IMG/VR virus record: IMGVR_UViG_3300009425_003086
Location: 1-54,187 of that record
DNA from: a virus
Reading direction: 5' to 3' (one strand)
Length of the DNA: 54,187 nucleotides
The position numbers and the translations under genes are program-made. Positions 4,875 to 47,555 of the stretch are shown here, in pieces. Within the stretch, counting starts at the first letter, position 1; each line of letters opens with the position of its first letter. Below the pieces are notes generated by a model, which was given only the letters and a program-made list of their open reading frames with translations, searched no databases and was not told the DNA's origin.

Positions 4875-4906
4875 AGTTGCCTAATAAGTTAAATCTTCGT
4901 ATATTT
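4875..4906 (+). promoter_or_regulatory. Host-type promoter TTG-N20-TATATT (gp26-like gene)
   Basis: ATAGTTGCCTA with TTG at 4877-4879, exactly 20 bases, then TATATT from 4900 within TTCGTATATTTAT. The start codon follows at 4938. The same two boxes at the same spacing recur at nine other gene starts in this window. They resemble the -33/-7 boxes (TTTG, TAnnTTTG) of the Bacteroidota housekeeping sigma factor. Confidence 0.65.
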
Positions 4907-15187: not shown

Positions 15188-15219
15188 AGTTGCCTATAGC
15201 TATTATTTTTCTTATATTT
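15188..15219 (+). promoter_or_regulatory. Host-type promoter TTG-N20-TATATT (small polymerase gene)
   Basis: ATAGTTGCCTA with TTG at 15190-15192 and TATATT from 15213, spaced by 20 bases. It marks the switch from the virion block to the replication block. The ATG is 27 nt after the TATATT start. Confidence 0.65.
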
Positions 15220-15239: not shown

Positions 15240-16562
15240 ATGTTTTATATAGTTGAAAGCGACAAACAGCTAAAGAGGTTAGAAAAGTACAAAGATATAC
15301 CTACTTATGTAGAAGCAGTACCATCTAATTTTTCGTATCATCCCAAATTAGCAGATACAGTAGGAGTTTATATTAGACCTATAACCTTAGATAAAGGATT
15401 CATAGTTCCAATCGATCATGAAGAAGGTTTAAATGTAGAGAAAGACCGTCTCTATGATATTTTAAAGCAATTTACTACTCTATATACTGTAGATAGGAAA
15501 GCATTGTTGTATCACTTTAATTTACTTAATAGCAACGATATTTCTCTGCTGTATATGATGAAGAAGTATGACAGATTACAGATACCAGATTATAATAAAG
15601 GAATCAACCATTTTTACAATAAATTTGATGATGATATAAGTATTAATAAGGTAATTCCTATTAGTAAACTATATGAATATTATGAAACTGTATTTGAAAA
15701 AATTAAAGGAGTAATAGAGGAAGAAAAACCTTCTGGGTTTGATTTTTATAATACTACAGCTACTAATGTATTCTTTTTATTAGAACAACAAGGATTAGGA
15801 GTATTTTATAACGCTTTCATTGAATTATTTAATCCTAGAAATCCTATTTTTAATATTACTAATAATATAGCACTAACTTCCTATAATTTATACAATGTTA
15901 CATCTAGGCCTACCAATTCTTTCAACAGTGTGAATTTTGCTGCAATTCCACATACCGAATCCCACCGAAAATCCTTTAAACCCCAAAACGATTTTTTTGT
16001 AGAATTTGATTTCGATGGGTACCACCTTCGATTACTCTGTCATCAGATTGGTTATAAATTAACTGATAAACCAGCTCATAAGCAATTAGCTAAACACTAC
16101 TTCGGTACTGAGGATATAACAGATGAACAGTATAAACAAGCAAAACAGATAAATTTCCATGCAATATATGGGAAGATACCTAAAGAACATGAAAACTTAG
16201 AGGTATTTAAGTTAATAAAAAAATATATTGCGGATATGTGGACTGTGTATGAAGAACAAGGTGTTGTATGTGATCCTATATCAAATAAACCATTCACTAA
16301 AGAACTAAAAGACATGCATCCCGCTAAATTAATGAATTATATGATGCAAAGCTTGGAAACTTCAAGAAATATTCTTATATTAAAGAATGTTCTACGGTTT
16401 TTAAAAGATAGAAAAACTAAAATCGCATTATACACCTATGACTCAGTGTTATTCGATTTTAATAAAGAAGATAAAGAAATACTAGATGAGTTAGAGAACG
16501 TGCTGAGCGAAGATGGGAAGTACCCTGTCAAGTTTAAGTCTTCTAAAAACCTGGTTTTATAA
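15240..16562 (+). CDS. Small, divergent family-A DNA polymerase-like protein
   Basis: 440 residues. The C-terminal half carries the three family-A polymerase motifs in order. Motif A is FDFDGYHLR (D257, R264), with His where E. coli Pol I has Glu710. Motif B is KQINFHAIYG (K302, F306, Y310, matching K758, F762, Y766). Motif C is YTYDSVLFD (D401 as Asp882, with Tyr and Ser replacing the usual His and Glu). Both catalytic aspartates remain. The first 240 residues show no 3'-5' exonuclease or FEN motifs. A complete second polymerase is encoded at 43324. The gene opens the replication block upstream of gp32 and UvsX homologues. A role in repair, lesion bypass or priming is possible but unproven. 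Confidence 0.75.
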   Translation: MFYIVESDKQLKRLEKYKDIPTYVEAVPSNFSYHPKLADTVGVYIRPITLDKGFIVPIDHEEGLNVEKDRLYDILKQFTTLYTVDRKALLYHFNLLNSNDISLLYMMKKYDRLQIPDYNKGINHFYNKFDDDISINKVIPISKLYEYYETVFEKIKGVIEEEKPSGFDFYNTTATNVFFLLEQQGLGVFYNAFIELFNPRNPIFNITNNIALTSYNLYNVTSRPTNSFNSVNFAAIPHTESHRKSFKPQNDFFVEFDFDGYHLRLLCHQIGYKLTDKPAHKQLAKHYFGTEDITDEQYKQAKQINFHAIYGKIPKEHENLEVFKLIKKYIADMWTVYEEQGVVCDPISNKPFTKELKDMHPAKLMNYMMQSLETSRNILILKNVLRFLKDRKTKIALYTYDSVLFDFNKEDKEILDELENVLSEDGKYPVKFKSSKNLVL

Positions 16563-16584: not shown

Positions 16585-17043
16585 ATGGAAAATGTTTTGG
16601 CAAGGCCGGTATTTGATTACGATATCGACGTAACACCCCTAACTGGAGATATGAATAATAAGCTTTTCTGTACTTTCTCAACAGAAACAGACCTAGAAAA
16701 CAATCTAGCTCAGATAAAAGAGAAGTATAAAATAATATACAACAAAATCTTTGTGCTTTATTCAAAGAGCCAAGACGAGTATATCTGTACCTATAATGTA
16801 GATTTCGGAAATGTATCTGCATTTCTAGATAATACAATACTTGTACATAGAAAAAAAGAAACCAACACACTTTATACAATTAACGCTCTAAATACATTAA
16901 TTAAGTCAATTAATGGAGGAGTGCTTGATACAAGCTATAAGGTCGATTGGACTGATTATAGGAATTGCGTCCTCCTAACCAAAGGACCGGAGTTAAAAAG
17001 GATTAATACTAAACTTTTTCGTATAATAGAGTTGGTCCCCTGA
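16585..17043 (+). CDS. Conserved-looking protein of the replication block, function unknown
   Basis: 152 residues. The N-terminus (FDYDIDVTPLTGD) is acidic. The C-terminal half has NTLYTINALNTLIKSI and WTDYRNCVLLTKG segments that look like a compact alpha/beta domain. It lies between the small polymerase and the single-stranded DNA-binding protein. The promoter of the latter sits in its last codons. In T4 the gp32 neighbourhood holds gp59 and gp33, but I see no match to either. A TATTTATA octamer lies 5 nt before its ATG (16573-16580). Confidence 0.6.
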   Translation: MENVLARPVFDYDIDVTPLTGDMNNKLFCTFSTETDLENNLAQIKEKYKIIYNKIFVLYSKSQDEYICTYNVDFGNVSAFLDNTILVHRKKETNTLYTINALNTLIKSINGGVLDTSYKVDWTDYRNCVLLTKGPELKRINTKLFRIIELVP

Positions 17044-17061
17044 TCTTTTTTTCGTATATTA
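17030..17061 (+). promoter_or_regulatory. Host-type promoter TTG-N20-TATATT (ssDNA-binding protein)
   Basis: TTG at 17032-17034 inside the last codons of the upstream gene, then TATATT from 17055 in TTCGTATATT. Spacing is 20 bases. The ATG is 36 nt after the TATATT start. Confidence 0.65.
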
Positions 17062-17090: not shown

Positions 17091-17867
17091 ATGGATTTAA
17101 ATGCAATTAAAGCAAAGCTCGGTGAGCTAAACAGTAACTCTGGAGACAGAGAAAAAAAAGACTACTCAAAGATATTTTGGAAACCTGAGATAGGTAAACA
17201 AGTAGTAAGAATTCTACCATCACATTTTGACCCTGCGTTCCCATTTAAGGAATTAAAGTTTCATTACGGTGTAGGTAAATATCCTATGGTAGCTCTATCT
17301 AATTTTGGTAAACAAGATCCGGTAGAAGAGTTTGTTAATGAATTAAAAAAGACATCTGATAAAGATAACTGGTCATTAGCAGGAAAACTAACTCCGAAAA
17401 CTAGAATATTTGCTCCGGTAGTAGTAAGAGGTCAAGAAGACCAAGGAGTAAGATTATGGGGATTTGGAGTAACAATTTACAAAGCACTTCTAGCACTAGC
17501 AGAAGATGAAGATGTAGGTGATTACACTGATGTTATTAATGGATGGGACTTAGTTGTAGAACAAGCCACAGGTAATCCTTACCCAGTAACAACTGTAAGA
17601 ATCAAACCAAAACAAACACCATTATCAGACAATAATGACAACGTGAAACTATGGTTAAAAGAACAACCATCACCAGAAGAGTCATTTACACAGTATGATT
17701 ATGAGTTTATCAAGAGACAACTAAAGAGTTACTTAGACCCTAACGCAGAGGAGACTAATACTCCAGCAGCAGAACCATCGGCAGCAGTTAAGACTGACTT
17801 TACGTTGGCCAAAGCAGGAACAGGTAATGATAAAGTAAGCAAATTCGACGATCTTTTTAACGAATAA
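17091..17867 (+). CDS. Single-stranded DNA-binding protein (T4 gp32-like)
   Basis: 258 residues against 301 for T4 gp32. The core has WKPEIGKQVVRILP, FKELKFHYG and RIFAPVVVRG, the OB-fold pattern of phage gp32 proteins. The tail is acidic and ends KFDDLFNE, the usual docking tail for recombination and replication partners. The N-terminal LNAIKAKLGELN helix could give cooperativity. It protects single strands and organises UvsX, polymerase and helicase. It stands directly upstream of uvsX-like and rnh-like genes. The zinc-binding Cys/His set of T4 gp32 is not obvious. Confidence 0.88.
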   Translation: MDLNAIKAKLGELNSNSGDREKKDYSKIFWKPEIGKQVVRILPSHFDPAFPFKELKFHYGVGKYPMVALSNFGKQDPVEEFVNELKKTSDKDNWSLAGKLTPKTRIFAPVVVRGQEDQGVRLWGFGVTIYKALLALAEDEDVGDYTDVINGWDLVVEQATGNPYPVTTVRIKPKQTPLSDNNDNVKLWLKEQPSPEESFTQYDYEFIKRQLKSYLDPNAEETNTPAAEPSAAVKTDFTLAKAGTGNDKVSKFDDLFNE

Positions 17868-17873
17868 ATAAAC

Positions 17874-18947
17874 ATGACAGTAAAGAAAAAACAAGTTATA
17901 GAAGCCGCATCTGCGATCGTCAAAAAAAATTTTGACTTAAGTAAGTTTAAAAAGAAGAAAGGTTTTTCTAATTCATCAGTAAAATTTAAAGAACAGGGTT
18001 GGATACCTCTATCAAAAGCATTTGTAAATATAACATCTTTACCGGGCATACCAACTGGACATATAACATTACTACGTGGACATAGTGATACTGGGAAAAC
18101 CACAGCACTAATAGAAGCAGCAGTGAATGCACAGAAAATGGGAATTTTACCTGTATTCATTATAACGGAGATGAAATGGTCTTGGGATCATGCTAAAATG
18201 ATGGGATTAGAGCTTGCAGAGTTAAAAGACTCTGAAGGTGATGTAACAGATTACGATGGCTTCTTCCTCTACGCAGATAGAGGTACTATCAACTCCATTG
18301 AAGATGTAGCCGCTTATATGGCTGATCTAATGGATGAACAGACAAAAGGTAATTTACCTCACGATATGTGTTTCTTTTGGGATTCAGTAGGATCTGTACC
18401 ATGTGATCTTTCAATACGTTCTAATAAGAACAATAATGAATGGAATGCAGGAGCAATGTCAACTCAATTTGGAAATAACCTTAATCAAAAGATCTTACTT
18501 TCTAGAAAATTAGGCAATCCTTACACTAATACATTAGTAGCAATAAATAAAGTATGGACTATGAAACCTGAGCATCCTATGGGTCAACCAAAGCTGCAAA
18601 ATAAAGGTGGAATGTCGATGTGGTACGATGCTACATTAGTAGTTACTTTTGGTAACATAACAAACCCTGGAACTTCTAAAATTAAAGCAGTAAAAGACGG
18701 CCTTCAGGTGGAATTCGCCAAACGGACTAATGTACAAGTCGAAAAGAACCATATCGGAGGAGTACAATCCAGAGGTAGGGTAGTAATGACATCACACGGA
18801 TTTATCGAGGATGATAAAAAAGCTATTGATAAGTATAGGGATACACATAAAGAACACTGGTTAAAACTAGTGGGAACAATGGACTTTGACTTAATTGAAC
18901 AAGGCGACTTAGAAGAGGAGAAAATAACTACTAAGTTATTAGATTAA
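17874..18947 (+). CDS. uvsX: RecA-like recombinase (T4 UvsX-like)
   Basis: 357 residues (T4 UvsX 391). Walker A is GHSDTGKTT (69-77), with a hydrophobic MCFFWDSVGS Walker B strand around 166-175. A QFGNNLNQKI segment and GGMSMWYDATLVV correspond to the DNA-binding and core regions of RecA/UvsX proteins. The enzyme forms filaments on single-stranded DNA for strand exchange and recombination-dependent replication. It overlaps the next gene by one base (TAATG), so the two are co-translated. Confidence 0.9.
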   Translation: MTVKKKQVIEAASAIVKKNFDLSKFKKKKGFSNSSVKFKEQGWIPLSKAFVNITSLPGIPTGHITLLRGHSDTGKTTALIEAAVNAQKMGILPVFIITEMKWSWDHAKMMGLELAELKDSEGDVTDYDGFFLYADRGTINSIEDVAAYMADLMDEQTKGNLPHDMCFFWDSVGSVPCDLSIRSNKNNNEWNAGAMSTQFGNNLNQKILLSRKLGNPYTNTLVAINKVWTMKPEHPMGQPKLQNKGGMSMWYDATLVVTFGNITNPGTSKIKAVKDGLQVEFAKRTNVQVEKNHIGGVQSRGRVVMTSHGFIEDDKKAIDKYRDTHKEHWLKLVGTMDFDLIEQGDLEEEKITTKLLD

Positions 18948-19978
18948 TGAGCACTAAATACAACAGTATTTTAGAAAACCTTAAAGAAAGACCTCCTCAA
19001 GAGCTAAATGATAATATTATGGTCATTGATGCTATGAATACTTTAATTCGTAGTTTTTCTTTACTAAAAGCAATGAACCCTGACGGTTACCACATAGGTG
19101 GCTTGGTTGGATTTTTACGCTCCCTTGGGTTCTTAGTAAGAACATTCGAACCTAGCAGAGTAATAATAGTATGGGACGGAAAAGGTGGATCAGCTAATAG
19201 AAAGAATATCAATCCTGAATATAAAGCTAATAGAGCTACTAGTAGAATTACTCACTGGGGATTATACGATACAAAAGAAGAAGAAACAGAAGCCCTGATA
19301 GGACAGTTGAATAGAGTACGAGACTACCTTGAATGCTTACCGGTCCAACAAATAATGATGGAGAAATTGGAAGCGGATGATATTATGGCTTATATAGGTA
19401 AGCAAGCTTCTGATTCTAATGTTAAAAAATGCACGATAGTATCTTCAGATAAGGATTTCTTACAATTAGTAGATGATACTATAGAGGTTTATGCACCAAT
19501 AAAGAAAATAGTTTATACAGAAGCTAATATTAGAGAAGGACTAAACGGTATTATACCTGAAAACTACAATATTGTAAAAGCTTTACTTGGAGATAACTCA
19601 GACAACCTAAAAGGAGTAAAAGGTTTAGGTATAAAGACTATTCTTTCACAATTCCCAAAACTTATTGATGATCCTACTATGGAATTAGATTATGTATTCG
19701 GAGTATGTGAAAAGAACTTAGAAGGTAAGAAGATTTTCTCTAAAATACTTACTGCATGGGATCATGTAGAAACTAATTACGAACTTATGAATTTACATGA
19801 GTCTGTGTTGGATGATAACGAAAAAAATCATATATTGGATGTAATGAAAGCAAGTATACCGGATCTACAAGCTGGAGCATTCCTTCATTTACTAGATACA
19901 GATAAAATAGAAGGAATAACTAAGAATACAGAAGGATGGTTAGAAAACTTTAGAAAATTAACAGTTTATAAAAAATAG
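18947..19978 (+). CDS. 5'-3' exonuclease / RNase H of the FEN family (T4 Rnh-like)
   Basis: 343 residues. FEN-type acidic residues appear in order: VIDAMN (N-terminal Asp), VIIVWDGKGG, KLEADDIMAY, SSDKDFLQL, and the helix-hairpin-helix region LLGDNSDNLKGVKGLG. A FEN/Rnh nuclease removes RNA primers and flaps from lagging-strand fragments. It is followed 5 nt later by the replicative helicase, in keeping with a replisome operon. Confidence 0.88.
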   Translation: MSTKYNSILENLKERPPQELNDNIMVIDAMNTLIRSFSLLKAMNPDGYHIGGLVGFLRSLGFLVRTFEPSRVIIVWDGKGGSANRKNINPEYKANRATSRITHWGLYDTKEEETEALIGQLNRVRDYLECLPVQQIMMEKLEADDIMAYIGKQASDSNVKKCTIVSSDKDFLQLVDDTIEVYAPIKKIVYTEANIREGLNGIIPENYNIVKALLGDNSDNLKGVKGLGIKTILSQFPKLIDDPTMELDYVFGVCEKNLEGKKIFSKILTAWDHVETNYELMNLHESVLDDNEKNHILDVMKASIPDLQAGAFLHLLDTDKIEGITKNTEGWLENFRKLTVYKK

Positions 19979-19983
19979 GTTAT

Positions 19984-21330
19984 ATGACATTACAGAGATT
20001 ATCAGAATACGGAAAAGGATTCCAAATAAAAGTGATCGGCGCACTACTAACACAGAAAGGATTTCTAATTAATGTTAGAGACACCCTAAAAGCAGACTAC
20101 TTTGATACTGACACTCATAAATGGGTGGTTGATAAAATCTTATCGTACTTTGATCAGTACAACACTACCATTACTATGGATGTTCTTAAAGTAGAACTTA
20201 AAAAAGTAGATAATGATGTCTTAATGACAGCTTTAAAAGAAGAATTAAGGAATTCTTATGCAGCTTCACAGGATGATTTAGATTATGTAGAGGGAGAATT
20301 TACTTCTTTCTGTCGTAATCAGGAAATGAAAACTGCTATACTAGATTCAGCATCCATGCTAAAAAATGGTGATTTTGAAGGAATCAGAAGTGTAGTAGAA
20401 AAAGCAATTAAAGCCGGAATGGATAAAAGTATAGGTCATGAATATAATAAAGATGTTGAATCACGTTATCGTGTTGACTACCGTCCTACTATTCCTACTC
20501 CTTGGCCTGCTCTTAATGATAGTATACAAGGTGGGTTTGGACCTGGGGACCTTGGCATCATTTTTGGTAGTCCTGGTGGTGGTAAAAGTTGGACTATGGT
20601 TGCTATTGCCGCTCATGCTGTTCAGCTTGGCTACAAAGTTAATTATTATACTTTGGAACTGGGTGAAGACTATGTAGGAAAAAGATTTGACTGTTATTTT
20701 ACAGGTCATGGTATTGAAGAGGTAAATAGTCATAGAGGAGAGGTACAAACATACATTGATAACTTAAAAGGAAAATTAATAGTAAAAGAATACGCACCGA
20801 AACAAGCTAGTGTAGGTACTATAAAAGCACATATACAGAGGTGTACTGATTTAGATCACAAACCGGACTTAGTTATAATTGATTATGTTGATTATTTAAG
20901 AGGACCGGCTAGAGGAAAGTTTACTGAAAGAAAAGATGAGATTGATGATAGTTTTATCGCAACTAAAGGACTAGCAAAAGAACTACAGATACCTATAATC
21001 ACACCTTCCCAGGTAAATCGAATGGGAGCCAGGGATAGTATTATAGAAGGTGACAAAGCAGCAGGCTCATACGATAAAATGATGGTTGCTGACATCTGTA
21101 TATCACTTTCCAGAATGAAAGAAGACAAGGTACTAGGTACAGGTCGATTCCATATCATGAAAAATAGATACGGTCGAGATGGAATGACATATAATATAAA
21201 AATGAATACAAATAACGGACATATTGATATTGAAGGTGTAACAAACCTGGAAGAACTTCTCGAACAAGAGAATAAACCCCAGTTTACTCTTACACCGGAT
21301 AAAATGCAAGATTTATTTGGAAAAACCTAA
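19984..21330 (+). CDS. Replicative DNA helicase, DnaB/gp41-like
   Basis: 448 residues (T4 gp41 475). A helical N-terminal domain (about 1-150) is followed by a RecA-type motor. Walker A is GSPGGGKS (195-202), Walker B is LVIIDYVDYL, a sensor-like PIITPSQVNR follows, and an arginine-finger region contains FHIMKNRYGRDG. It forms a hexamer that unwinds the lagging strand. No primase domain is present. The stretch 20461-20660 around Walker A uses many T/C-ending codons (CGT, CCT, GGT, GCT), unlike its A-ending flanks. Confidence 0.9.
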   Translation: MTLQRLSEYGKGFQIKVIGALLTQKGFLINVRDTLKADYFDTDTHKWVVDKILSYFDQYNTTITMDVLKVELKKVDNDVLMTALKEELRNSYAASQDDLDYVEGEFTSFCRNQEMKTAILDSASMLKNGDFEGIRSVVEKAIKAGMDKSIGHEYNKDVESRYRVDYRPTIPTPWPALNDSIQGGFGPGDLGIIFGSPGGGKSWTMVAIAAHAVQLGYKVNYYTLELGEDYVGKRFDCYFTGHGIEEVNSHRGEVQTYIDNLKGKLIVKEYAPKQASVGTIKAHIQRCTDLDHKPDLVIIDYVDYLRGPARGKFTERKDEIDDSFIATKGLAKELQIPIITPSQVNRMGARDSIIEGDKAAGSYDKMMVADICISLSRMKEDKVLGTGRFHIMKNRYGRDGMTYNIKMNTNNGHIDIEGVTNLEELLEQENKPQFTLTPDKMQDLFGKT

Positions 21331-30039: not shown

Positions 30040-30071
30040 AGTTGGAATTCTAATAAATAATCACTATATTA
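30040..30071 (+). promoter_or_regulatory. Host-type promoter TTG-N20-TATATT (thioredoxin)
   Basis: TTG at 30042-30044 and TATATT from 30065, spaced by 20 bases. The ATG lies only 13 nt after the TATATT start, so the transcript may be leaderless. Confidence 0.6.
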
Positions 30072-37604: not shown

Positions 37605-37999
37605 AAAAAATATACTTAACTTATGATGATGTAGATTCTTTATTAGATAAGATTTATGAACAGGTAGAGGATGAAGGTTTTAAACAAGTAACTGGAATTC
37701 CAAGAGGAGGAACTATTCTCGCCATTTTATATTCTCATAAATACGGAATAAAATATACTCATAATATAGTTAACGAATCAGACCTATTAGTATTAGATGA
37801 TATAGCAGATTCAGGAGCTACTCTAAAAAAGGAGAGTGAACTCTACCCTGATGTTACGTTTGCTACTCTACATTATAAAGCTGAGTCAGTATATGAACCA
37901 GAGTATTACGCAAAATACATTATTGCAGAGTATGGCTGGGTTGTGTACCCATGGGAGCAAAGTAATTCAAATCCCATACAAGATTATTTGGAAAATTAA
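37595..37999 (+). CDS. Phosphoribosyltransferase-like protein
   Basis: About 134 residues from ATG 37595. An in-frame ATG at 37559 lies deep inside the preceding small gene, and the added residues look unstructured. VTGIPRGGTILA and LLVLDDIADSGATLKK form the PRPP-binding site of type I phosphoribosyltransferases. The substrate is unknown: nucleobase salvage is the usual role. The location between the ferredoxin and folE allows a role in handling released guanine or a deazaguanine, which is speculation. Confidence 0.75.
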   Translation: MGVKKIYLTYDDVDSLLDKIYEQVEDEGFKQVTGIPRGGTILAILYSHKYGIKYTHNIVNESDLLVLDDIADSGATLKKESELYPDVTFATLHYKAESVYEPEYYAKYIIAEYGWVVYPWEQSNSNPIQDYLEN

Positions 38000-38017
38000 A
38001 AAAAAATTCTTATATTA
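37986..38017 (+). promoter_or_regulatory. Host-type promoter TTG-N20-TATATT (folE)
   Basis: TTG at 37988-37990 and TATATT from 38011, 20 bases apart. The folE ATG is 13 nt after the TATATT start, so a leaderless transcript is likely. Confidence 0.55.
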
Positions 38018-43264: not shown

Positions 43265-43296
43265 AGTTGTTTTCCTGCAATATTTTTCGTATATTT
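43265..43296 (+). promoter_or_regulatory. Host-type promoter TTG-N20-TATATT (DNA polymerase)
   Basis: TTG at 43267-43269 and TATATT from 43290 (TTCGTATATTTAT), 20 bases apart. It overlaps the 5' end of a longer open frame and so supports ATG 43324 as the polymerase start. Confidence 0.65.
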
Positions 43297-43323: not shown

Positions 43324-45663
43324 ATGGAGTTAGAAAAAAAATATTACACAGTCCAAGATAAAGAGACTTTAAATCTATTATACAAACACATTACTGACTC
43401 AGATGTAATAGCAGTCGATACTGAGACGACTGGGCTAAATCCTCGAAAGAATAAAATCGTAGGATGGTCTGTTTCCGGAGATGAAGGTGTAGGGTTTTAC
43501 TTACCCACTCTAGTATATAATTTTGAAGCCGATGAACTTCAAGTACAGACGATAGATGGACAATCTACAGAAGTAATCTCCAAAAACCTACTTAAACTAC
43601 TTAAAGGAAAGAAACTAGTATTTCATAATGCTTCCTTTGATGTTCAGTTCATAAAAAATTACTTCGGAGTTGACCTTATAGAAGATATATGGGTTGATAC
43701 TGGTTTACTTGTTCATACTGTCTATGAAGAAGGAGCCTTTGGATTCGGAAATCCATTTGGCCTAAAATCAATCGCTATTATGAATCAGGAAGCTCTAGGC
43801 CTGAACGTAGAAGAAGCAGCCAACCAAGAGCAAATAGAACTAAAAGAATCAATAAAGAAAAATGGTGGAGAAACTACTAAACTTAAGTATGAAATATATA
43901 AAGCAGATCTTGACATACTTTCTAAGTACGCTGCTGCTGATACTGACCTTACCCTTCGTATTTGTAATTTATATTTGGGTAAACTTAGAGATGAAGGCTT
44001 GGAAAAATTCTTCTTTGAAGAAGAGGTAATGCCTGTGTATCGTGAAGTTACTGTACCTATGGAAGCTACTGGAGTAGACCTAGATATGGACCTACTTCAT
44101 GAAACTCATAAAAACATCACAGTAGATTTAGCGAAGAATAAAAAAATAGTAATGAAGAGCCTACTAGATACTTCAGAAGCTAAGAAATGGGTTGTAGATA
44201 CATCTATGTCTACTTACCCCCCCTCTCATAAAGGTAATTGGGCACAACAACTAGCTATAAGGTATTCTCTATCTTTACCTAAGAGTGAAAAGACTGGTAA
44301 GTTTTCTATTACATCAAAACATGTAGAAGCTTTAGATGACGGGCCTGTTAAAGAGTTCTTAAAGACTGGAGATATTGAATTATTAGATAGTTTAGAAGTA
44401 GCTCGTATTTCTATGTCGATGTGGAAAGAATCTAATGACGGAGACCATATTAATATTCAATCCAAAAAACATTTAGGAGAAATCTGTTTTAAGTATATGG
44501 GTATTAAAGCTAAGTCTCAAACAAGAAAAGGACAAGATCAATTCGATATGAGCATGTTGGAGGTATTATCAAAGACTTATGCTTGGGCAGAGAATCTACG
44601 TATCTATAATAAACTACTAAAGATTAAATCTACTTATGTAGATAGGTTTATAGATAGGTCTGAAGATGGCAGATACTACTTTTACTTTAAGCAGAACGGT
44701 ACTGTATCAGGTAGGTATGGATCAGATGCTCAACAATTACCTAAAACTAAAGAAGAAGGAGAAGATGCTCCAATTATCATTAGGTATAATAATATAGTAA
44801 GAGCATTTCTAATTGCTGGAAAAGGACGTAAAGTAATCGATTGTGATTACGAATCTTTAGAACCACATTGCTTTGCATCAGTATCAGGAGACAAAAAATT
44901 ACAAGAAATCTTCAACAACGGATGGGATTTTTATTCTTATGTTGCTATTCAAACTGAAAAACTAAACGAACAAAGAAAAAGATTTCCTAACGGAGTATCA
45001 GCAGATAAGAAAGCAGATAACTACCTTAAGAAACTAGATGTAACAGCACGTAATAAAGCTAAAGCCTATTCATTAGGGGTAGCATACGGAATGGAAGCAT
45101 TTGCTCTTAAGATGACATTAGGAGTAGACCAAAAGACTGCTGAAGGACTTATAAAAGGTTACTTAGAAGGATTCCCAGGCTTAGCTGAATGGAGAGAAAA
45201 TTCTAGACTTCAAGTTAAAGCTCATGGTTATATTAAAAATTCTGTTGGTAGAGTAAGGCATTTACCTAAAGTGCAGAAGATCTACACTAAGTATCAAGAT
45301 CAATTCTTAGATTGGAGATTTAGAAAGAACTTAGAACCTCAATATGGTAGAGCTCAAGTATTACAGGTATATAGAGACTTTAGAAACGGACTTAATAACT
45401 GTTTAAACTTTCAACTTCAGTCATTAGCAGCATCAGTGGTAAATAGAGCTGCAGTCAAGATTAACTTAAAGGCTAAAGAACTAGGGATAGATGCAATTGT
45501 TCAAGCACAGGTTCATGATCAATTGATTATTAATATTGCAGAAGAAGATGCAGATAGATTTGCACCCTATGTACAAGAGCTTATGGAAACGACTACTGAA
45601 TTAGAAGGTGTAACCTTAAAAGCACCTCCAGAGATAGCGAATAACTGGCAAGAAGGCCATTAA
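43324..45663 (+). CDS. DNA polymerase I-type (family A) replicative polymerase with 3'-5' exonuclease
   Basis: 779 residues from ATG 43324; the longer open frame would translate the promoter. The exonuclease has DTETTGLNP, VFHNASFDVQF and YAAADTDLTL (all three acidic motifs). The polymerase has motif A DYESLEPH (D508, E513), motif B RNKAKAYSLGVAYG (K580, L584, Y588) and motif C QVHDQL (H731, D732). Leu584 sits at the E. coli Phe762 position, a substitution common in marine phage polymerases. No 5' FEN domain is fused; the Rnh-like gene at 18947 supplies that activity. This is the likely replicase of the phage. Confidence 0.92.
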   Translation: MELEKKYYTVQDKETLNLLYKHITDSDVIAVDTETTGLNPRKNKIVGWSVSGDEGVGFYLPTLVYNFEADELQVQTIDGQSTEVISKNLLKLLKGKKLVFHNASFDVQFIKNYFGVDLIEDIWVDTGLLVHTVYEEGAFGFGNPFGLKSIAIMNQEALGLNVEEAANQEQIELKESIKKNGGETTKLKYEIYKADLDILSKYAAADTDLTLRICNLYLGKLRDEGLEKFFFEEEVMPVYREVTVPMEATGVDLDMDLLHETHKNITVDLAKNKKIVMKSLLDTSEAKKWVVDTSMSTYPPSHKGNWAQQLAIRYSLSLPKSEKTGKFSITSKHVEALDDGPVKEFLKTGDIELLDSLEVARISMSMWKESNDGDHINIQSKKHLGEICFKYMGIKAKSQTRKGQDQFDMSMLEVLSKTYAWAENLRIYNKLLKIKSTYVDRFIDRSEDGRYYFYFKQNGTVSGRYGSDAQQLPKTKEEGEDAPIIIRYNNIVRAFLIAGKGRKVIDCDYESLEPHCFASVSGDKKLQEIFNNGWDFYSYVAIQTEKLNEQRKRFPNGVSADKKADNYLKKLDVTARNKAKAYSLGVAYGMEAFALKMTLGVDQKTAEGLIKGYLEGFPGLAEWRENSRLQVKAHGYIKNSVGRVRHLPKVQKIYTKYQDQFLDWRFRKNLEPQYGRAQVLQVYRDFRNGLNNCLNFQLQSLAASVVNRAAVKINLKAKELGIDAIVQAQVHDQLIINIAEEDADRFAPYVQELMETTTELEGVTLKAPPEIANNWQEGH

Positions 45664-45674
45664 TAGCTAAAAAG

Positions 45675-45998
45675 ATGGATATTAAACAACGAGGCGTGTA
45701 TGGAGTATTAAATGAGATGAAATTGTTAATGTATATTGGTTCTTCAACTCTTCCTTTACATATATTAGAGTATAATCATAGAAATTGGAAACAGAAGAAT
45801 TATAGTGGTACTAATTTTAGAAATAAACTAAGTCAGGTAGGAAAAGATTGGAAATTCTTTTGGATAATTAAACCATATGATTGTGATTTAAGAGAAATTG
45901 AAACAAGAGAAGGAGAATTAATACGTAAATATATTCCTCTTTTGAATATAGATAAAACACCAATAAAATCTTCTATTAAGTATGGAAGAATTAAATAA
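45675..45998 (+). CDS. GIY-YIG nuclease-like small protein
   Basis: 107 residues. GVYGVLN and LMYIGSS form the GIY-YIG core strands. An H-x-x-x-R-like stretch (YNHRNWKQ) and REGELIRKYIPLLNID carry the Glu and Asn of the GIY-YIG fold. It stands alone 11 nt after the polymerase gene. Free-standing GIY-YIG proteins in phages include homing endonucleases; flanking of a conserved replication gene fits, but no intron is seen. The C-terminus is basic. Confidence 0.7.
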   Translation: MDIKQRGVYGVLNEMKLLMYIGSSTLPLHILEYNHRNWKQKNYSGTNFRNKLSQVGKDWKFFWIIKPYDCDLREIETREGELIRKYIPLLNIDKTPIKSSIKYGRIK

Positions 45999-46958: not shown

Positions 46959-46988
46959 TTGCCTAAGAAGTATTTTCTTCGTATATTT
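46957..46988 (+). promoter_or_regulatory. Host-type promoter TTG-N20-TATATT (Hsp20 region)
   Basis: ATAGTTGCCTA with TTG at 46959-46961 and TATATT from 46982 (TTCGTATATTTAT), 20 bases apart. It overlaps the metK stop. A short open frame begins 12 nt after the TATATT start, and the hsp20 ATG follows at 47072. Confidence 0.65.
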
Positions 46989-47523: not shown

Positions 47524-47555
47524 AGTTGGATCCCTCATTTATTTTTACTATATTA
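47524..47555 (+). promoter_or_regulatory. Host-type promoter TTG-N20-TATATT (groES-groEL)
   Basis: TTG at 47526-47528 and TATATT from 47549, 20 bases apart. The groES ATG is 29 nt after the TATATT start. I see no CIRCE-type inverted repeat, so heat-shock control by HrcA is not indicated. Confidence 0.65.

Follow-up and report, generated by a model that had tools for sequence, protein, structure and literature searches.

A miniature family-A DNA polymerase of the divPolA1 family heads a conserved phage replication and recombination gene cluster and may act as an accessory to the regular replicase

The viral DNA analysed here (the window: all 54,187 nucleotides of IMG/VR record IMGVR_UViG_3300009425_003086) encodes, besides a regular replicase, a second and miniature family-A DNA polymerase; the open reading frame, profile, structural model and conserved motifs bear out the initial annotation on this point. 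Phages usually have no more than one DNA polymerase. The protein combines a predicted Klenow-like fold and an invariant pair of catalytic Asp residues with lost exonuclease residues, fixed active-site changes and a conserved gene cluster. We see about an even chance that it is a catalytically competent, non-proofreading short accessory polymerase acting beside the regular replicase. The genes concerned are as follows:

15240..16562, + strand: divPolA1, 440-residue miniature family-A DNA polymerase (ATG start; profile, model and alignment)
16585..17043, + strand: X152, a constant partner of 152 residues and no known family, always at most 1.6 kb downstream of divPolA1
17091..17867, + strand: gp32-like single-stranded DNA binding protein, SSB (PF08804, 4e-11)
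17874..18947, + strand: UvsX/RecA-like recombinase (phrog_97, 1.6e-13)
18947..19978, + strand: 5'-3' exonuclease of the FEN / Pol I 5' nuclease type, FEN (PF02739, 1.2e-32)
19984..21330, + strand: DnaB-like replicative helicase (phrog_19, 8.7e-72)
43324..45663, + strand: full-length family-A DNA polymerase, the regular replicase (PF00476, 1e-55; PF01612, 5e-13; exonuclease motifs intact)

The frame at 15240-16562 matched the Pfam family DNA_pol_A with an E-value of 1e-7, just under the curated cut-off, and a PHROGs search gave no convincing match. At least 591 stretches in IMG/VR encode a relative, which, together with the invariance of the Asp pair in 136 distinct proteins, argues that the frame has not arisen by chance; divPolA1 is common in marine phage contigs. 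Another 7 relatives were found on MAG contigs, and a search for plasmid relatives found none. Two divPolA1 contigs are probably misbinned phage contigs: L165 had been assigned to a Rickettsiaceae MAG and L168 to a Nitrosopelagicus MAG. By tblastn, gp001 of Flavobacterium phage immuto was 58% identical to the window protein over 440/440 residues (E 3e-165), and full-length relatives were present in the 484-kb uncultured phage LR756508 (28%) and in Microcystis phage Mel-JY01 (27%). No relative was confirmed when the LR756508 protein was the query against IMG/VR. The window protein and immuto gp001 fell within one clade of the tree (support 99/99). The family was first reported and named divPolA1 by Yutin et al. 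(2024; Virol J 21:200; PMC11348598), who report 14 phages, immuto included, and describe an enzyme that accompanies a regular PolA, PolB or PolC and has an inactivated exonuclease, a truncated thumb and a conserved replication neighborhood. Since immuto gp001 is a published member and a relative of the window protein, the latter belongs by sequence to divPolA1; its kind is already known rather than categorically new. The E710H/R754Y/H881Y pattern, X152, the canonical sister clade and the promoter element described below are absent from the main text of that paper.

An AlphaFold2 model built on 34 relatives had a pLDDT of 93.4 and a pTM of 0.91. Its top Foldseek match was Klenow (E 2.5e-18), and VIA-align matched it to Pol I large fragments with Z ~27 over ~410 residues, across model residues 1-440; the model has the palm/fingers/thumb fold of family A. 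Because this match extends over the whole chain, the first 240 residues, for which the initial annotation proposed structure prediction, are predicted to comprise a reduced exonuclease domain and a short thumb, after which the palm begins. The domains in the model are:

residues ~1-135: exonuclease remnant
residues ~140-200: short thumb
residues ~203-440: palm/fingers

In the predicted model, the exonuclease remnant and the palm are only ~60 residues apart, the stretch assigned to the thumb. Almost all of the 136 proteins have V/I and S/P at exo I positions 26 and 28, none has Asp or Glu there (0/136), and the exo II position is variable in the same set; motifs were placed by eye from secondary structure, exo II and III with less certainty. 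The model, the fold match and the lost acidic residues indicate that the N-terminal ~135 residues are a degenerate, dead 3'-5' exonuclease fold, which corrects the earlier description of the protein as having no exonuclease. PMC11348598 likewise concludes that this domain is inactivated.

A profile from 23 relatives, aligned to Klenow over residues 190-429 (E 1.9e-5), placed D257 on D705, H262 on E710, K302 on K758, F306 on F762, Y310 on Y766 and Y400-D401-S402 on H881-D882-E883. The three polymerase motifs are located as follows:

16008..16031, + strand: motif A, DFDGYHLR, residues 257-264 (D257 = D705; H262 = E710, the steric-gate position)
16131..16172, + strand: motif B / O helix, YKQAKQINFHAIYG, residues 298-311 (Y298 = R754, K302 = K758, F306 = F762, Y310 = Y766)
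16428..16457, + strand: motif C, LYTYDSVLFD, residues 397-406 (Y400 = H881, D401 = D882, S402 = E883)

Across 136 distinct divPolA1 proteins (3 partial), the catalytic Asp pair never varied (D257, 135/135; D401, 136/136), and the equivalents of R668 (R223), K758, F762 and Y766 were each present in 135/135 and that of Q849 (Q370) in 135/136; E373 and D406 were further invariant residues. Replacements were equally uniform: E710 by His (135/135), R754 by Tyr (134/135) and H881 by Tyr (136/136). The Klenow alignment and these counts uphold the initial annotation in that all three motifs and the Asp pair are kept and that His stands for Glu710. Its contrast of TYDS in motif C with VHDE holds in part: the window protein does read TYDS, but Ser is only one option at the E883 position (Ala in 105, Ser in 31 of 136 relatives), and the companion PolA reads VHDQ. 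Klenow E710 helps to exclude ribonucleotides and R754 contacts and holds the dNTP phosphates, so the changes in divPolA1 touch substrate selection.

A scan with the X152 of LR756508 identified a polymerase frame of ~410 codons at the position of divPolA1 in contigs L190 and L191. A sister clade of divPolA1 was represented on four contigs, with provisional start codons:

L193:8001-9224: sister-clade polymerase
L194:7995-9224: sister-clade polymerase
L195:574-1797: sister-clade polymerase
L196:518-1765: sister-clade polymerase

These polymerases have ~410 codons, lie upstream of the same SSB and retain the motif A Glu, the O-helix RxxxK and HDS, HDA or fully canonical HDE in motif C; we found no published description of the clade. 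The divPolA1 profile matched them with E-values of 1e-25 to 7e-13. The tree had separate clades for divPolA1 (99/99), its sister group (93/98) and Pol I with full PolA (100/99), the depth being uncertain because the branches are long and the outgroup is small. Family-A enzymes usually have Glu, Arg and His at these positions, as the sister clade does, and the E710, R754 and H881 changes are therefore most simply explained as derived, which is probable. A recent duplication of the phage's own PolA was rejected: hhalign gave no significant profile match, on shallow alignments, and the divPolA1 profile, with filters off, found no full PolA at E <= 1.

The order divPolA1-X152-SSB-UvsX-FEN-DnaB is conserved. 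At loci with enough flank, SSB lay downstream of divPolA1 in 122/124, UvsX in 96/96, FEN in 72/74 and DnaB in 62/63, in agreement with the earlier statement that the polymerase opens a replication cluster. The suggested role in recombination with UvsX is compatible with their being neighbors at every such locus, but adjacency cannot separate this role from general replication.

X152 was the most immediate neighbor, within 0.9 kb in 149 of 151 loci with enough flank and within 1.6 kb in the remaining two. X152 and full-length divPolA1 occurred in exactly the same 6 of 50,697 phage records; for contrast, FEN occurred in 1,135. The protein is strongly conserved, with the motif NTILVHRKKxTNTLYTINALN, and has so far been seen only with divPolA1 or the sister polymerase (3/4 sister-clade contigs; none detected in L196). 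Searches of Pfam, PHROGs, NCBIfam and PADLOC gave no convincing match. A low-confidence model (pLDDT 61) showed a beta-alpha-beta-beta-(beta)-alpha-beta order, ferredoxin-like rather than OB-like, and neither the sequence nor this modelled fold had a match in the PDB. The idea, from its size, of a RegA-like translational repressor was rejected (hhalign probability 0.3%). In Mel-JY01 (L083:16985-18271), a protein with an S-adenosylmethionine lyase domain (PF23780, 4e-10) is encoded between X152 and SSB.

A conserved promoter-like element accompanies the cluster:

15190..15219, + strand: promoter-like element TTGCCT-(spacer)-TATATTT, 21 nt before divPolA1
17032..17061, + strand: second copy, before the SSB gene
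4877-4906, 30042-30071, 37988-38017, 43267-43296, 46959-46988 and 47526-47555: further window copies which, like the two above, read TTG-N19-20-TATATT(A/T)

The pattern TTG-N19-23-TA[TC]nTT[AT] occurred within the last 85 nt before divPolA1 at 99/120 distinct loci (shuffles 2.6, maximum 7). It also preceded SSB at 123/153 loci, compared with 3/156 for X152, 2/136 for UvsX, 0/110 for FEN and 0/135 for the upstream ORF615; as the TA[TC]nTT[AT] variant was chosen after inspecting sequences, this contrast between genes carries the main weight. A related pattern matched the + strand of the window 16 times (shuffles 3.4); several of these matches lie 7-85 nt ahead of open reading frames, full PolA included. 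The strict Bacteroidetes consensus TTG-N18-22-TAnnTTTG was found upstream of divPolA1 at 0/120 loci. The strong promoter originally annotated here gains no support from a sigma-70 scan, whose 39 matches were at chance level (40.5 in shuffles), but the conserved element does precede the gene. The positions of the element suggest a common transcript start for divPolA1 and X152, with SSB as the first gene of the next transcript.

The full-length enzyme at 43324 is a normal family-A replicase, as annotated from the outset. Together with 7 relatives it keeps the Glu, Arg and His replaced in divPolA1 (8/8) and has Leu at 762 and Gln at 883 (HDQ motif C). Directly after it, a small frame (45675-45998) weakly matched a group I intron endonuclease (TIGR01453, 6e-4, below cut-off). 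All 10 divPolA1 records searched contained a regular replicase; the proposed co-occurrence with full PolA holds for 8/10 (canonical PolA), and in 2/10 (Mel-JY01 and LR756508) PolB stands in its place. In LR756508.1 (260623-266900 and 47415-48068), family-B polymerase matches fell in two frames ~4-6 kb apart, with a PolC-type alpha domain (575-aa frame) in addition; the family-B gene is perhaps interrupted by an intron or intein. The divPolA1 module is thus retained while the regular replicase swaps between families. Its constancy beside PolA, PolB or PolC, the last as reported by Yutin et al., fits a replicase-independent accessory role.

These results support the earlier idea of a second, specialized PolA-type enzyme, which heads a replication and recombination cluster and coexists with a full replicase. 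As an accessory polymerase, divPolA1 would polymerize DNA, to judge from its conserved residues. It would work with X152, SSB, UvsX, FEN and DnaB, and its substrate would be single-stranded DNA covered by SSB at forks, gaps or recombination intermediates. X152 may be its obligate partner, as a processivity, DNA-binding or regulatory subunit, and the separate FEN would supply the 5' nuclease function that bacterial Pol I has in the same chain. The cluster could in this way operate like a split Pol I that fills gaps, replaces RNA primers and extends D-loops. The gene neighborhood is no proof of joint action, however, and does not separate gap filling from other accessory roles. Moreover, the replacement of R754, E710 and H881 may have weakened, altered or abolished activity.

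The R754 and E710 changes make a pseudo-polymerase the strongest rival, although we consider it unlikely. Such a protein would bind primer-template or fork DNA and load or regulate X152, SSB, UvsX and DnaB without significant synthesis. The dead exonuclease, the fixed partner and cluster and the substitution of E710, R754 and H881 are consistent with this; as the sister clade keeps the canonical residues, the substitutions could mark a loss of catalysis. Both metal-binding Asp residues and the equivalents of K758, F762, Y766, R668 and Q849 are nevertheless invariant or nearly so down to 27% identity, and this counts against a pure scaffold, which would not need catalytic residues.

Alternatively, though we hold this to be rather improbable, divPolA1 and X152 might be the two subunits of a biochemically new type of polymerase, in which the change of E710/R754/H881 to His/Tyr/Tyr alters sugar or triphosphate handling. 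Examples would be ribonucleotide-tolerant or de novo primer synthesis enabled by the X152 subunit; if this is true, large marine phages would possess a family-A priming polymerase of a new kind. A triple change fixed in an otherwise intact active site, a sister clade for comparison and X152 make the function testable with two small proteins.

A precedent exists for a primase or prim-pol with X152 (or SSB) in the role that MP has for CcPol in SCCmec: CcPol, a family-A enzyme with a truncated exonuclease, acts as a DNA primase once it is joined by a small protein from the adjacent gene (PMC7581432, PMC10061031). By analogy, the small protein that invariably follows the polymerase here and the changed steric-gate position would fit this function, to which we assign a low probability. 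The low-confidence X152 model (pLDDT 61) would speak against it, its order being unlike an OB fold and without a PDB match. So do the separate TOPRIM/DnaG-like primase genes of immuto, Mel-JY01 and the 157-kb contig G001, three of the larger genomes, on which grounds simple replacement of a lost primase was rejected; LR756508 had no detectable gene of this kind, and the remaining records are only fragments.

Lower still in probability are reversed roles, with divPolA1 as main replicase and full PolA as accessory. Here divPolA1, and not full PolA, lies within the conserved replication cluster, and PMC11348598 gives the regular DNA polymerase a functionally mixed context; however, divPolA1 has no predicted proofreading and an apparently small thumb, whereas the regular enzymes are complete replicases with exonuclease. 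The initial proposal of a polymerase specialized for copying 7-deazaguanine-modified DNA is highly improbable: the window does contain QueC, FolE and QueF genes, immuto has an annotated DpdA, and QueC and FolE occurred in 7/10 and 8/10 divPolA1 records, respectively, but G001 has FolE without detectable QueC, and Mel-JY01 and LR756508 have divPolA1 with neither QueC nor FolE detectable, so that divPolA1 is independent of the modified-guanine pathway.

Returning to the accessory polymerase, we compared it with known systems. As described in PMC11348598, divPolA1 proteins are additional to the regular DNA polymerase, have a dead exonuclease, keep the palm catalytic residues and are followed by replication genes; the window copy has no feature distinguishing it from the family in that description. 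With the Klenow fragment of bacterial Pol I, divPolA1 shares the whole-chain fold, domain order, motifs A, B and C and the catalytic Asp pair, but it has 440 rather than ~605 residues, a dead exonuclease and the changes E710H, R754Y, H881Y and E883A/S; the 5' nuclease is a separate gene beside divPolA1 and part of the same chain in bacterial Pol I. The PolA-SSB primases of the CcPol-MP type (PMC7581432, PMC10061031) are likewise family-A enzymes whose exonuclease is truncated or partial, and a gene for a small, constant partner comes next. In contrast to MP, X152 has no detected OB fold (model pLDDT 61) and a separate gp32-like SSB gene follows; the cluster contains no COG3378-type helicase, and several of the same genomes have their own TOPRIM/DnaG-like primase. 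Finally, TV-Pols (Iyer et al., 2008; PMC2579912) are also small family-A polymerases of viruses and mobile elements without working proofreading. They retain RxxxK and occur in linkage with D5-like helicases but, as described, never with nuclease genes, whereas divPolA1 has YxxxK in the fingers (134/135), a DnaB-like helicase, a FEN gene nearby and a remnant of the exonuclease fold.
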